This document shows, in pieces, positions 17,370-46,066 of a DNA stretch of 64,000 bases. Where the stretch lies: positions 1 to 64,000 of the forward strand of contig SVMS01000005.1 of the NCBI GenBank assembly GCA_015067255.1. The letters are read 5' to 3'. The stretch is from Oscillospiraceae bacterium (GTDB lineage Bacteria > Bacillota > Clostridia > Oscillospirales > SIG519). The notes below the pieces were generated by a model. That model was not told where the DNA came from. It did no database searches and saw only the letters and a list, made by a program, of their open reading frames with translations. How positions within the stretch are numbered: position 1 is the first letter of the stretch; every line of letters starts with the position of its first letter. The position numbers and the translations under genes are program-made.

Positions 17370-18212
17370 TTATTCAAGCTCATTTTTGTCTATCTTTACC
17401 TTTCTGTCACTGCCTTCCTTGAGAAGCGAAAAGAGAGCTTGTCTGTCATTGGATTTTATTGCATCCTTGTATTGATTTAAGGAGTTTATAATGCTGTCTA
17501 TTTCAAATAAAAGGTTTTCTTTATTGTCCATAAAAAGCTGTGTCCACATCTCAGCACTTAATTGAGCAACACGGGTTAGATCCTTGTAGCTTCCTGCAGA
17601 AAAACCGTGATGTACAGCTGCAGACGGACTTTTAACATATGCGTTTGAAACAACGTGAGCAAGCTGAGAGGTGTATGCAATTATTTTGTCGTGATTTTGA
17701 GCAGATGTAACAGAAACACTTTCAAAACCTGCTAATACAAGAATATCCTTTATTTTTGATAATAGCGCAATATCTTCGTTTTTCTTTGGAACTAAAATCA
17801 TATTTGCGCCGCAAAATAAATCTTCCTTAGAGTTTTTATAGCCGGAATTTTGCAATCCTGCCATAGGGTGTCCACCTACAAAATGAAAATTATTTTTATC
17901 TGCTATATCAAAACAGGGAGAACAAATTTTTTCTTTAACGCCGCAACAATCAATAACAATTGAGTCTTTTTTGAAAAAGCTTTGATTTTTAAGAATATAT
18001 TCGACGGTTGCATCGGGGTATAAAGCAATAAAAACAGCATCACAAAGCTTTAAGGTATCCTGTGTCAAAGCTGCATCTAAAGTGCCGGTCATAATAGCAT
18101 ATTGCAGAGTGATAGTGTCAATATCAAAACCGTAAACAGTATTGTTGCTTTTTTTATAAGCTTTAGCAAGAGAACCGCCGATAAGACCTAAACCAACAAT
18201 TCCTATTACCAT
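17370..18212 (-). CDS. tyrA: Prephenate dehydrogenase
   Basis: 280 residues. The N-terminal Rossmann motif is [20 protein letters not shown], then IDCCGVKEKI and FVGGHPMAGLQNSGYKNSKEDLF, where His binds prephenate, as in TyrA enzymes. The C-terminal helical dimerisation region includes HDKIIAYTSQLAHVVSNAY and YKDLTRVA. It decarboxylates prephenate oxidatively to 4-hydroxyphenylpyruvate, the tyrosine precursor. There is no C-terminal ACT domain, so feedback inhibition by tyrosine through such a domain is not expected. It overlaps aroF by 7 bases and shares the Tyr-codon leader upstream. Confidence 0.94.
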   Translation of the reverse strand: MVIGIVGLGLIGGSLAKAYKKSNNTVYGFDIDTITLQYAIMTGTLDAALTQDTLKLCDAVFIALYPDATVEYILKNQSFFKKDSIVIDCCGVKEKICSPCFDIADKNNFHFVGGHPMAGLQNSGYKNSKEDLFCGANMILVPKKNEDIALLSKIKDILVLAGFESVSVTSAQNHDKIIAYTSQLAHVVSNAYVKSPSAAVHHGFSAGSYKDLTRVAQLSAEMWTQLFMDNKENLLFEIDSIINSLNQYKDAIKSNDRQALFSLLKEGSDRKVKIDKNELE

Positions 18213-19216
18213 TTGTTCATTTCTCCTTTTATTGCAAACGCCTTCTTGGAAAGAATTTCAAATTGTTCAGGGGAGAGGGATTGAGCGCCGTCGCATAATG
18301 CCTTTGAAGGATTGTTATGAACTTCAATCATAAGACCGTCTGCACCGCCTGCTACAGCTGCAAGAGCTAATGAAGGAACTATTCTTGAAATTCCGCAAGC
18401 GTGGCTTGGGTCAACAACAACGGGAAGATGAGACAGTTCTTTAAGCATACAAACCGCAGATAAATCAAGAGTGTTTCTTGTGTAGGTTTCAAAGGTTCTG
18501 ATTCCTCGTTCGCATAAAATTATATTTTCGTTGCCGCCGGACATAATATATTCAGCGCTCATAAGTAATTCGTTAATAGTGCTTGAAAGACCTCTTTTTA
18601 AAAGAATGGGCTTTTTTGTTTTACCTAATTCTTTAAGAAGCTCAAAGTTTTGCATATTTCTTGCGCCTACCTGAATGATATCAACATCATCAAAAAGAGG
18701 CAGATGGTTTGCATTCATAATTTCAGTAATTATAGGCATTTTTGTAGCTTCTTTAGCTTTTTTCAAAAGGTCTATTCCTTGGGCACCGAGACCTTGGAAA
18801 TCATAGGGCGAGGTTCTTGGTTTAAAAGCACCGCCTCTCAAAACAGAAGCACCGCTTTTTTTTACGCTGTCAGCAATTTCGATAATCTGCTGTTCACTTT
18901 CGACTGAACATGGACCTGCAATCAATACGAAATTTCCACCGCCTATTTTAACATCGTCAGAAATCTGAACAATAGTGTCGTCAGGGTGAAACTTTCTGTT
19001 GGCATTTTTAAAAGGCTCAGTTATTCTTGTAACCTTTTCGACAATATCAAGACCTTCTAAAAGATTGACGTCAATTTTACCGGCATCTCCGATAAGGCCC
19101 ATAATAGTTTGAAATTTTCCTTTTGAAAGGTGAACCTGCATTCCTTGGTTTTCAAGCCAATCGGTAAGATTGTCTATTTGAGGTTGTGGGGAATTTTCTT
19201 TTAAAAGAATAATCAT
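18206..19216 (-). CDS. aroF: 3-deoxy-7-phosphoheptulonate (DAHP) synthase
   Basis: 336 residues. A ferredoxin-like N-terminal regulatory domain of about 65 residues is followed by the KDO8P/DAHP synthase barrel: [54 protein letters not shown] and [14 protein letters not shown]. This is the class I-beta type found in Bacillus and Thermotoga. It condenses PEP and erythrose-4-phosphate in the first step of the shikimate pathway. Pairing with tyrA plus a Tyr-rich leader suggests this copy serves tyrosine synthesis. The ATG follows AAAGGACAC. Confidence 0.95.
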
Positions 19217-19249: not shown

Positions 19250-19281
19250 TAAAAAAACTCAGCAGTGTAATTACTGCTGAG
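19250..19281 (-). terminator. Attenuator terminator before aroF
   Basis: On the minus strand, stem CTCAGCAGT / ACTGCTGAG (19281-19273 with 19266-19258), 6-base loop, then seven T residues. It lies between the Tyr-rich leader peptide and aroF. TTGCTG upstream of it can pair with CAGCAG in its 5' arm, offering an antiterminator. Confidence 0.8.
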
Positions 19282-19323
19282 CATAAATAAACGGAATAAT
19301 TTGTTGCAGCAAAAACACTCTTA

Positions 19324-19383
19324 TTATTTTTTTCTGAAATAATAAGAGTAATAATACTTTGAAGCAACACAATTGATAAACAT
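19324..19383 (-). CDS. Tyr-rich leader peptide of the aroF–tyrA attenuator
   Basis: A 19-residue peptide, MFINCVASKYYYSYYFRKK, ending in two tandem TAA stops. AAAGGA lies 10 bases before its ATG. Five Tyr codons and one Phe codon sit in a run of seven. The mRNA from that run onward (ACTCTTATTATTT) pairs with AATAATAAGAGT just past the stop, forming a 12- to 13-bp pause hairpin. The attenuator terminator and aroF follow. The design matches transcription attenuation by a stalled ribosome: low Tyr-tRNA(Tyr) stalls translation on the Tyr codons, frees the antiterminator and allows aroF–tyrA transcription. The mechanism is inferred; the sequence features are direct. Confidence 0.82.
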   Translation of the reverse strand: MFINCVASKYYYSYYFRKK

Positions 19384-19409
19384 TATCCCGATATCCTTTC
19401 TTTTTTCTC

Positions 19410-19438
19410 AGTATAGCACTGATTTTTTAGTTTGTCAA
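19410..19438 (-). promoter_or_regulatory. Promoter for the leader peptide–aroF–tyrA operon
   Basis: Minus-strand TTGACA (19438-19433), a 17-base spacer and TATACT (19415-19410), placing the start about 20 bases before the leader ATG. Confidence 0.82.
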
Positions 19439-19487: not shown

Positions 19488-19557
19488 AAATTGAGCTTTA
19501 AAAGGAGGATAGATTAGTAAGCTTTTAAACGTTTAGCTTGTTTTTAAAACAGTTTTG

Positions 19558-19710
19558 CTGCGTTAGCGCCGGAACCGAGAAATTTATCGGTTGACGAGGA
19601 AAGGGTTATCGAAATTATCGGCGGATACCCTTCGGCAATCTGTGCGGTCGTGAGCCTTTCGTTAAAAAGCGGGAGTAATTCCGTAACAAAGCGAAAGTAG
19701 GCACAGATTA
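19558..19710 (+). ncRNA. glmS ribozyme riboswitch
   Basis: The core reads TTAGCGCCGGAACC, then TTGACGAGGAAAGGG, TTATCGAA and TCGGCGGATACCC, all in the order of the glmS catalytic core. The expected cleavage site is just before AGCGCC near 19565. The 3' domain closes with CTGTGC/GCACAG and CTTTCG/CGAAAG pairings. Glucosamine-6-phosphate is the cofactor that triggers self-cleavage and lowers glmS expression. It precedes glmS by about 260 bases, which is a long spacer. Confidence 0.93.
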
Positions 19711-19973: not shown

Positions 19974-21788
19974 ATGTGCGGAATAGTTGGATATATAGGA
20001 AAAAGACAGGCAGCAGAAATTCTTATAGAAGGTCTTAAAAAGCTTGAATACAGAGGCTATGACTCTGCAGGTATTGCAGTAAGATATGAAGATGGAATAA
20101 TAGTTGAAAAATCCAAAGGCAGATTGGCAGATTTAGAAGCTAAGCTTGAAAAATGCGGTGTTCCTACAGGAAATATAGGAATAGGACATACCCGTTGGGC
20201 AACTCACGGTGAGCCTTCTGACGTTAATTCTCATCCCCACTGCGGCGGAAAAGTAACTCTTGTTCATAACGGAATTATTGAGAACTATATTCCTTTAAAG
20301 CAACAGCTTATTGAACAGGGAAGAGTTTTCGTATCTCAGACAGATACAGAAGTAGCAGCACAGCTCATTGACTCTTTATATAAGGGCGATCCCTTTGATG
20401 CTATTTTCTCGGCTATGGATATAATTAAAGGCTCATATGCTTTTGGAATTATGTTTGAAGATATTCCCGATAAAGTTTTCGCAGTAAGAAAAGACAGTCC
20501 TCTTGTAATAGGAGTAGGCGAGGGAGAAAACTATATAGCTTCCGATATTCCCGCAATTTTAAATCATACAAGAGAATATTATCTTATTGATGAAAAGGAA
20601 TTGGTAGTACTTACAAAGGACAGCGTTAAGATTTACGGTGCTGACAGAAAAGAAATAAACAAAGAAACTATGACAGCAACCTGGGATATTGAAGCAGCGG
20701 AAAAAGGCGGATATCCTCACTTTATGATAAAAGAAATTCACGAAGAGCCTAAGGCTTTGAGAGATACAATACTTCCCAGACTCGCTAACGGAATAGATAA
20801 TATTTTAGGTGAAGAATTAGAAGATACTTCCGAAATAAAAAGAATAGTAGTTGTTGCTTGCGGCTCTGCTATGCATGCAGGCTTATTGGGTAAATATGCA
20901 ATAGAAAAGCTTGCAAGAGTTCCCGTTGATGTGTGTATCGCTTCGGAATTCCGTTATTGCGACCCCATTTTAAATAAAGGTGATTTGGTAATACTTATTT
21001 CTCAGTCGGGAGAAACAGCAGACTCTCTTGCAGCATTACGTCTTGCAAAACAAAGAGGAATACCCGTTTACGCTATTGTAAATGTTGTAGGCTCCTCTAT
21101 TGCACGTGAAGCTGATAAAGCAATCTTTACTTGGGCAGGTCCCGAAATTGCAGTTGCAACTACCAAGGCTTATTCTACACAGACAGCCGTTATGTACGTT
21201 CTTGCATTAAGACTTGCTATGGACAGAAAAACAATCTCCCGTGAATATGCTCAAAAGCTTTCAGATGCTCTTTGCGCTATTCCCGAAAAGGTTGAAAAAA
21301 TTCTTGAAAATGTCAAAGAATATGAAGAGCTTGCAGCCTTCAATAAAGATATTCACGATTTATTCTTTATAGGACGCGGACAGGACTACGCTCTATGCTG
21401 TGAAGGTTCATTAAAGCTTAAAGAAATTTCATATATGCACAGTGAAGCATATGCGGCAGGCGAGCTTAAACACGGAACGATTTCTCTTATCTATGATGGA
21501 GTTCCCGTTGTTGCGGCAGCTACCGAAGAAGCTCTTATGGAAAAAACAATAAGCAATATAAAAGAAGTTAAAGCAAGAGGCGCATTTGTTATATTCCTTT
21601 GTAAGAAGGGCGCAGTAAAAGAAAATGATTTTTATGATAAACTCATAGAAATTCCCGAAACAGAAGAACTGTTTATGCCTCTTCTCTCAATTGTTCCTTT
21701 ACAAACCTATGCTTATTATACTTCAATCTGCAAGGGTTGTGACGTTGATAAGCCCAGAAACTTAGCAAAATCAGTAACAGTTGAATAA
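19974..21788 (+). CDS. glmS: Glutamine:fructose-6-phosphate aminotransferase
   Basis: 604 residues. The N-terminal Ntn glutaminase starts MCGIVGYIG, with Cys2 the nucleophile after Met removal, and has GIGHTRWATHGEPSDVNSHPH. Two SIS sugar-isomerase domains follow: VVACGSAMHAGLLGKYAIEK with ISQSGETADSLAALR, then FFIGRGQDYALCCEGSLKLKEISYMHSEAYAAGELKHG. The C-terminus DKPRNLAKSVTVE is the family end. It makes glucosamine-6-phosphate for peptidoglycan. The start is fixed by the catalytic Cys2. Control by the upstream ribozyme closes the feedback loop. Confidence 0.98.
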   Translation: MCGIVGYIGKRQAAEILIEGLKKLEYRGYDSAGIAVRYEDGIIVEKSKGRLADLEAKLEKCGVPTGNIGIGHTRWATHGEPSDVNSHPHCGGKVTLVHNGIIENYIPLKQQLIEQGRVFVSQTDTEVAAQLIDSLYKGDPFDAIFSAMDIIKGSYAFGIMFEDIPDKVFAVRKDSPLVIGVGEGENYIASDIPAILNHTREYYLIDEKELVVLTKDSVKIYGADRKEINKETMTATWDIEAAEKGGYPHFMIKEIHEEPKALRDTILPRLANGIDNILGEELEDTSEIKRIVVVACGSAMHAGLLGKYAIEKLARVPVDVCIASEFRYCDPILNKGDLVILISQSGETADSLAALRLAKQRGIPVYAIVNVVGSSIAREADKAIFTWAGPEIAVATTKAYSTQTAVMYVLALRLAMDRKTISREYAQKLSDALCAIPEKVEKILENVKEYEELAAFNKDIHDLFFIGRGQDYALCCEGSLKLKEISYMHSEAYAAGELKHGTISLIYDGVPVVAAATEEALMEKTISNIKEVKARGAFVIFLCKKGAVKENDFYDKLIEIPETEELFMPLLSIVPLQTYAYYTSICKGCDVDKPRNLAKSVTVE

Positions 21789-45918: not shown

Positions 45919-46061
45919 AAAGATGAAATCAGCTAACGCTGATGAAATCTTCGCTTTGCTCAGATGAAATTAAATCCACCCATCCGCTGTCGAGGCGGAT
46001 TTCATCCCCGTAGGGGATTTCATCGTCGAAGACGATTTCACCCACCCGTAAGGGTGGATTT
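45919..46061. repeat. Array of short hairpins with a constant linker
   Basis: GCAAAG/CTTTGC encloses ATCAGC/GCTGAT. Then AAATCCACCC (45972-45981) and GGGTGGATTT (46052-46061) bracket four hairpins: ATCCGC/GCGGAT (45982-46000), ATCCCC/GGGGAT (46004-46018), ATCGTC/GACGAT (46022-46036) and CCACCC/GGGTGG (46042-46057). The first three are joined by the same TTC linker, while their stems differ by paired changes. This suggests selection or a copying process that keeps structure. It lies between the MATE gene and the tRNA-Leu terminator. Confidence 0.7.
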
Positions 46062-46066
46062 AGTTG

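Follow-up and report, generated by a model that had tools for sequence, protein, structure and literature searches.

The region upstream of the aroF–tyrA operon in the window, by which we mean the whole 64-kb stretch of DNA analyzed here, very probably encodes a ribosome-mediated attenuator of the trp/phe/his type, which would sense charged tRNA-Tyr, and charged tRNA-Phe to a lesser degree, and control aroF–tyrA. The original prediction of a ribosome-stalling attenuator at this locus is supported by the retention of the leader in relatives, by pairings that are specific to the individual locus and by the lack of a T-box. As judged from the nucleotide sequence, the parts, pairings and geometry of the region are those of an attenuator. 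These include a short ORF with its own Shine-Dalgarno (SD) sequence between the promoter and the first structural gene, a run of end-product codons (5 Tyr in 7) ahead of aroF–tyrA, an intrinsic terminator between the leader ORF and aroF, and a candidate antiterminator that excludes the terminator and shows covariation across loci. They also include a segment, termed region 2, which in modeled ribosome positions is free when the ribosome is stalled and covered when the ribosome is at the stop codon.

T-boxes or TRAP are the usual explanation for the control of aromatic operons in Firmicutes. In many uncultured Clostridia and in some cultured ones, such as Sporobacter, Aminicella, Emergencia and Angelakisella, the gate of the shikimate pathway seems to be governed by attenuation of the classical kind, through ribosome stalling.

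Organization of the leader and the predicted switch

The leader runs from 19438 to 19250 on the minus strand, in the space that separates aroF from the divergent glmS, and its parts lie where they had originally been placed (Table 1). The elements that had been claimed to precede aroF–tyrA in the classical order, namely a promoter, a ribosome site, a Tyr-run ORF, a hairpin and a terminator, are each present in the sequence. The same holds for the 19-residue ORF with five Tyr codons and one Phe codon in a stretch of seven, and for the pause hairpin overlapping this stretch, which is a perfect 13 bp helix. The terminator lies about 33 nt before the aroF ATG. Among the approximately 960 SD-bearing ORF starts of 8–50 aa in the 64-kb window, none but the leader ORF has 4 or more Tyr in 7 codons, and a single further ORF has 6 Tyr or Phe in 8. 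The 169-nt leader folds with an energy of -46.3 kcal/mol (z -5.8 relative to shuffled sequences).

Table 1. Features of the aroF–tyrA leader region, in window coordinates
Feature	Position	Strand	Basis or remark
Sigma-70-type promoter, TTGACA-17-TATACT	19410..19438	-	11/12 consensus matches
SD of leader ORF, GAAAGGA	19394..19400	-	sequence
Leader peptide ORF, MFINCVASKYYYSYYFRKK*, ATG 19383 to TAA 19324	19324..19383	-	sequence and relatives
Control codons, TAT TAT TAC TCT TAT TAT TTC	19336..19356	-	5 Tyr and 1 Phe in 7
1:2 protector hairpin	19298..19374	-	MFE fold; 1:2 pairing locus-specific across the family
Inner part of 1:2 hairpin, perfect 13 bp	19349-19337/19329-19317	-	begins within the Tyr run
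Outer part of 1:2 hairpin	around TGTTGC/GCAACA	-	MFE fold
Region 2, antiterminator 5' half, AGTGTTTTTGCTGC	19306..19319	-	motif search and pairing test
Region 3, antiterminator 3' half, GCAGTAATTACACT	19264..19277	-	terminator 5' arm, loop and start of 3' arm
Intrinsic terminator, GCTCAGCAGT-AATTAC-ACTGCTGAGT and T run	19250..19282	-	stem 19282-19257
aroF, DAHP synthase, first regulated gene	18206..19216	-	TIGR01361 / PRK08673
tyrA, prephenate dehydrogenase	17370..18212	-	overlaps the aroF end by 7 nt

The one element that had to be redrawn is the antiterminator. The pairing of TTGCTG with CAGCAG that had been put forward overlaps the best pairing, from which it is displaced in register, and is too short. 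In place of this six-base match, the best antiterminator is formed by AGTGTTTTTGCTGC and GCAGTAATTACACT, with 12 of 14 positions paired.

From this arrangement a course of stalling, termination and response to tyrosine may be predicted. Transcription would begin just past the promoter, and a ribosome would start on the 19-codon leader. When charged tRNA-Tyr is scarce, this ribosome is expected to stall in the YYYSYYF run and thereby break the 1:2 hairpin, leaving region 2 free to pair with region 3 once the latter has been made. As this antiterminator uses up the 5' arm of the terminator, its loop and the start of its 3' arm, the polymerase would read on into aroF–tyrA. If tRNA-Tyr is charged, the ribosome would reach the stop codon and cover the 5' half of region 2, so that the terminator could form. 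With no ribosome on the leader, the 1:2 hairpin would hide region 2 and the terminator would form as well. The energy calculated for the antiterminator of the window is -13.6 kcal/mol with the ribosome at any of the Tyr codons and -6.0 kcal/mol with the ribosome at the stop. In the equilibrium fold of the complete leader RNA the terminator outcompetes the antiterminator, and therefore the switch has to operate kinetically, like that of the classical attenuators.

On the opposite side of the intergenic region, glmS (19974-21788) is preceded by a glmS ribozyme (19554-19708, plus strand) and points away from the aroF leader. Two genes under RNA control are thus placed back to back, each of which is ordinary when taken alone.

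Conservation of the leader and of its alternative pairings

Relatives of the locus were drawn at the order and phylum levels, the genus and family levels having returned the window's own genome only. The resulting set consists of 80 aroF loci from GTDB genomes and about 90 that came from the window's own genome and from a sampling of its order. A strict leader, defined as an SD-preceded short ORF in which at least 6 of 8 codons specify Tyr or Phe, was found in 96 of 170 aroF upstream regions; the corresponding counts are 0 of 170 for the reverse complements and 1 of 850 for dinucleotide shuffles. Under a wider definition, with at least 5 of 8 codons for Tyr, Phe or Trp, the leader ORF is present in 125 of the 170, and the scan detected no such leader in the remaining 45 loci. 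An intrinsic terminator accompanies the leader in 123 of the 125 leader-bearing relatives (47 of 125 on the reverse complement), and is placed after the leader in 118 of them. A promoter with at least 10 of 12 consensus matches lies within 95 nt upstream in 92 of 125 leaders, compared with 6 of 125 shuffled sequences, and the median distance from the leader start to aroF is 190 nt. The reading of the peptide as a genuine ORF was also borne out by the relatives, in which the aromatic run is conserved and non-synonymous change is suppressed at the aromatic codons. Comparison of related leaders yielded 22 synonymous changes and 11 exchanges between Tyr and Phe against 13 other changes at the aromatic positions, and 33 synonymous against 85 non-synonymous changes at the other leader codons.

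The cultured carriers of the leader include Sporobacter termitidis, Aminicella lysinilytica, Emergencia sp. and Angelakisella massiliensis, and in the phylum-wide sample it is also present outside the class of the window. Several metagenome-assembled genomes (MAGs) labeled as non-Firmicutes, namely L017, L022 (Treponema), L082 (Lentisphaerae) and L040 (Thermoguttaceae), contain a clostridial-type aroF with a leader, which points either to horizontal transfer of the gene together with its attenuator or to mis-binning. The same tree also contains aroF–tyrA operons without a detectable leader (L014, L023, L024, L027, L035, L036, L039, L061, L069, L070, L075-L077, L097, L105 and L114), and no Rfam element was detected upstream of these operons either.

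A motif search in the relatives recovered a shared element after the aromatic run, with the consensus AagGttaTTTgTGcTGca and the typical form AAAGTGATTTGTGCTGCA, which corresponds to region 2. Among the loci with a clear core, this element follows the stop codon in 25 and falls within the ORF in the others, in frames 0, 1 and 2 in 22, 11 and 3 loci respectively. Since its conservation does not depend on the reading frame, region 2 is maintained as an RNA element rather than for the peptide. Its partner in the terminator comprises the 5' arm, the loop and the beginning of the 3' arm. Reversing the sequence preserves the motif and is therefore an uninformative control for the motif search, and we used a permutation test of self against cross pairing instead. 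In this test region 2 pairs better with the terminator of its own locus than with terminators taken from elsewhere in the set (mean score 21.75 vs 17.56, z 13.4, 0 of 5000 permutations), and the 1:2 pairing between the start of the leader ORF and the element is likewise locus-specific (z 7.2). Controls with reversed or neighboring sequence gave z values of 0.9, 2.0 and 3.5; the permutation test ignores relatedness, and the controls share the same relatedness. The covariation of the alternative hairpins that had been predicted was thus found, and compensatory variation can also be recognized by eye, as in AGTAAT with ATTACT, GCGAT with ATCGC and AGTGAT with ATCACT. The mean duplex energies are moderately below chance relative to shuffles (z -1.8 for 2:3 and -1.5 for 1:2), and the permutation test is stronger evidence for the pairing than these averages.

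The modeled ribosome positions are consistent with a switch operated by stalling. With the first, middle or last aromatic codon in the A-site, at least 30% of region 2 is covered in 0, 0 and 3 of 73 loci respectively, and with the stop codon in the A-site this is the case in 68 of 73. The location of region 2 after the run is set by the search, whereas its overlap with the footprint of the ribosome at the stop codon was not preset.

These observations bear on two other explanations of the ORF. The region is AT-rich, and TAT and TTT codons arise easily in such sequence, so that the ORF might be a chance occurrence beside an ordinary terminator. We attach next to no probability to this explanation, as it is refuted by the shuffled and reverse-complement controls, and the synonymous pattern, the frame-independence of region 2 and the locus-specific pairing likewise speak against it. 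Furthermore, there is no upstream gene on the same strand that would need a terminator, since glmS and its ribozyme face away. The second explanation is arrest by the nascent peptide, which in the exit tunnel would respond to free tyrosine and stall the ribosome, in the manner of TnaC with tryptophan. Such arrest would be in keeping with a short peptide, hydrophobic and aromatic, that is encoded ahead of a terminator. However, arrest peptides need fixed residues, and the leader peptide is not conserved beyond the run, the position and order of Tyr and Phe vary freely, and the C terminus varies in frame and length. Stalling at excess tyrosine would also regulate a biosynthetic operon in the wrong direction, and we regard this explanation as highly improbable.

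The amino acid predicted to be sensed

The leader had been termed Tyr-specific, which holds for this locus and for a minority of the relatives, but not for the family as a whole, where the run usually mixes Tyr with Phe. The aroF–tyrA pair makes tyrosine, an operon logic that fits a leader with a Tyr run. The second aroF of the window's genome (L208, G000:C2:43400-53000) is part of an operon with the order aroE/K fusion-aroF-aroB-aroA-aroC-pheA, which has a short 5' region and no leader of the Tyr/Phe type; a search of the same genome for trpE gave no match. Given that the second aroF operon carries pheA and that trpE has no match, control of the aroF–tyrA pair by Tyr is physiologically reasonable.

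We consider it unlikely that the attenuator senses Phe and Tyr jointly, as a gauge of general aromatic supply, with the local Tyr bias carrying no special meaning. The mixed YFYF runs of most relatives would favor joint sensing, as would AroR of Corynebacterium glutamicum, which has Phe-Tyr-Phe and is reported to respond to Phe only (PMC11802643); on the same account, a response to Tyr does not necessarily follow from the presence of Tyr codons. On the other side, the run in the window has five Tyr to one Phe, with the Phe in the last place, and the second aroF operon with its pheA would serve Phe.

Across the family, the share of Tyr among the Tyr and Phe codons of the leaders is 0.46 before aroF–tyrA and 0.29 elsewhere, a difference with a Mann–Whitney p of 1.3e-6 that is not corrected for relatedness. 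The leader itself is present at 94 of 113 aroF–tyrA pairs and at 31 of 57 other loci. Two related loci in which prephenate dehydratase comes next after aroF, L117 and L132, have all-Phe runs. However, on the aroF tree the association of Tyr share with tyrA is in the expected direction and not significant, and L040 and L082 are counter-cases with Tyr-containing leaders ahead of CM-prephenate dehydratase; for these reasons the tuning of run specificity is only suggestive. In some lineages the aroF leaders include Trp besides Phe and Tyr (L145, L148, L147, L195 and L197; examples are RFTSFGYPRFFWAWDF and YYYFYFSTGYFWLF), and such leaders possibly sense all three aromatic amino acids.

In our judgment the case is evenly balanced for the wider proposal that the locus is the first natural Tyr-responsive leader-peptide attenuator and belongs to a widespread clostridial family with a Tyr:Phe(:Trp) mix tuned to the products of the operon. 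The pattern of Tyr-rich runs before tyrA, all-Phe runs before prephenate dehydratase and Trp-containing runs in a few lineages is suggestive of such tuning. The many naturally occurring run compositions, all built on a single architecture, offer a ready test of how amino-acid specificity is set by the choice of codons.

Known attenuators and other aromatic sensors

Ribosome-mediated attenuation is a textbook mechanism, and the window leader shares with the enterobacterial attenuators of trpL-trpEDCBA, pheL-pheA, pheM-pheST and hisL a run of the regulatory codon, the alternative 1:2, 2:3 and 3:4 hairpins with a terminator before the first gene, and a stop codon placed such that the ribosome covers region 2. 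It differs from them in its Tyr-dominant run, in the operon controlled (aroF–tyrA) and in its occurrence in Clostridia, and also in that the clostridial region 2 is a conserved element of the AAAGTGATTTGTGCTGCA type, lying around or inside the end of the ORF in any frame. The arrangement parallels the E. coli operon of the tyrosine-specific DAHP synthase and tyrA, with control by attenuation rather than TyrR; the E. coli aroF–tyrA operon is under TyrR repression instead.

The closest precedent by target gene is the aroR-aroF attenuator of C. glutamicum (Neshat et al. 2014, as summarized in PMC11802643; first noted in PMC4046766), in which a leader peptide likewise precedes a DAHP synthase gene and attenuation is ribosome-mediated. 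Unlike the window leader, it belongs to an actinobacterium and has three aromatic codons, and the response reported in that summary is to Phe and not to Tyr. The uORFC-13-1 motif upstream of aroF in Acholeplasma also combines an upstream ORF with a terminator. It comprises 24 sequences from Acholeplasma and environmental DNA only, contains at least one Phe codon and was proposed to act through Phe incorporation (PMC8632094); the published description mentions no Tyr run, which sets it apart from the window leader. His leader peptides in a few Firmicutes species per group (PMC2965389, PMC9413887) are, like the present leader, classical leader-peptide attenuators replacing T-boxes in Bacillota, but they have histidine codons and control his genes. 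In an older survey, phenylalanine is grouped with the amino acids for which other species use attenuators, and tyrosine with those for which T-boxes are the control (PMC1262725). In the open-access literature, to which our search was confined to the exclusion of subscription journals, we found no description of Tyr-run leaders or of a clostridial aroF leader family. Thus, the mechanism is known, and a clostridial family with a broad distribution and its own conserved antiterminator element appears to be undescribed.

Aromatic sensing in Firmicutes usually relies on T-boxes, and six of them are present in the window's genome, so that a T-box or another riboswitch might control the operon, with the ORF being incidental. 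We regard this as extremely improbable, because the known classes tested negative in the leader. A T-box in the leader would have contradicted the original prediction, and Rfam searches at both gathering and permissive thresholds found there no T-box, no leader family or other Rfam structure, and nothing near the cut-off. They likewise gave no match at the aroF leader of 20 leader-bearing relatives, and the conserved T-box motif is absent upstream of aroF. The leader contains no Stem I, specifier loop or conserved antiterminator sequence of the T-box kind. In 20 aroF loci lacking a detected leader, Rfam searches revealed no T-boxes in its place. TRAP targets are marked by about 9–11 closely spaced (G/U)AG triplets, and the leader up to the terminator contains two GAG and no UAG. 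The six T-boxes of the window's genome are found elsewhere, at pheS, trpB, aspS and CoA-ligase-like genes. Three of them, L002, L004 and L005, precede sugar-isomerase-like/AMP-ligase, phenylacetate-CoA-ligase-like and AMP-ligase-like genes respectively, these names having been assigned by eye from the translations. The window itself also contains a Gut-1 RNA (Rfam RF01706) at 45994-46066 on the minus strand.
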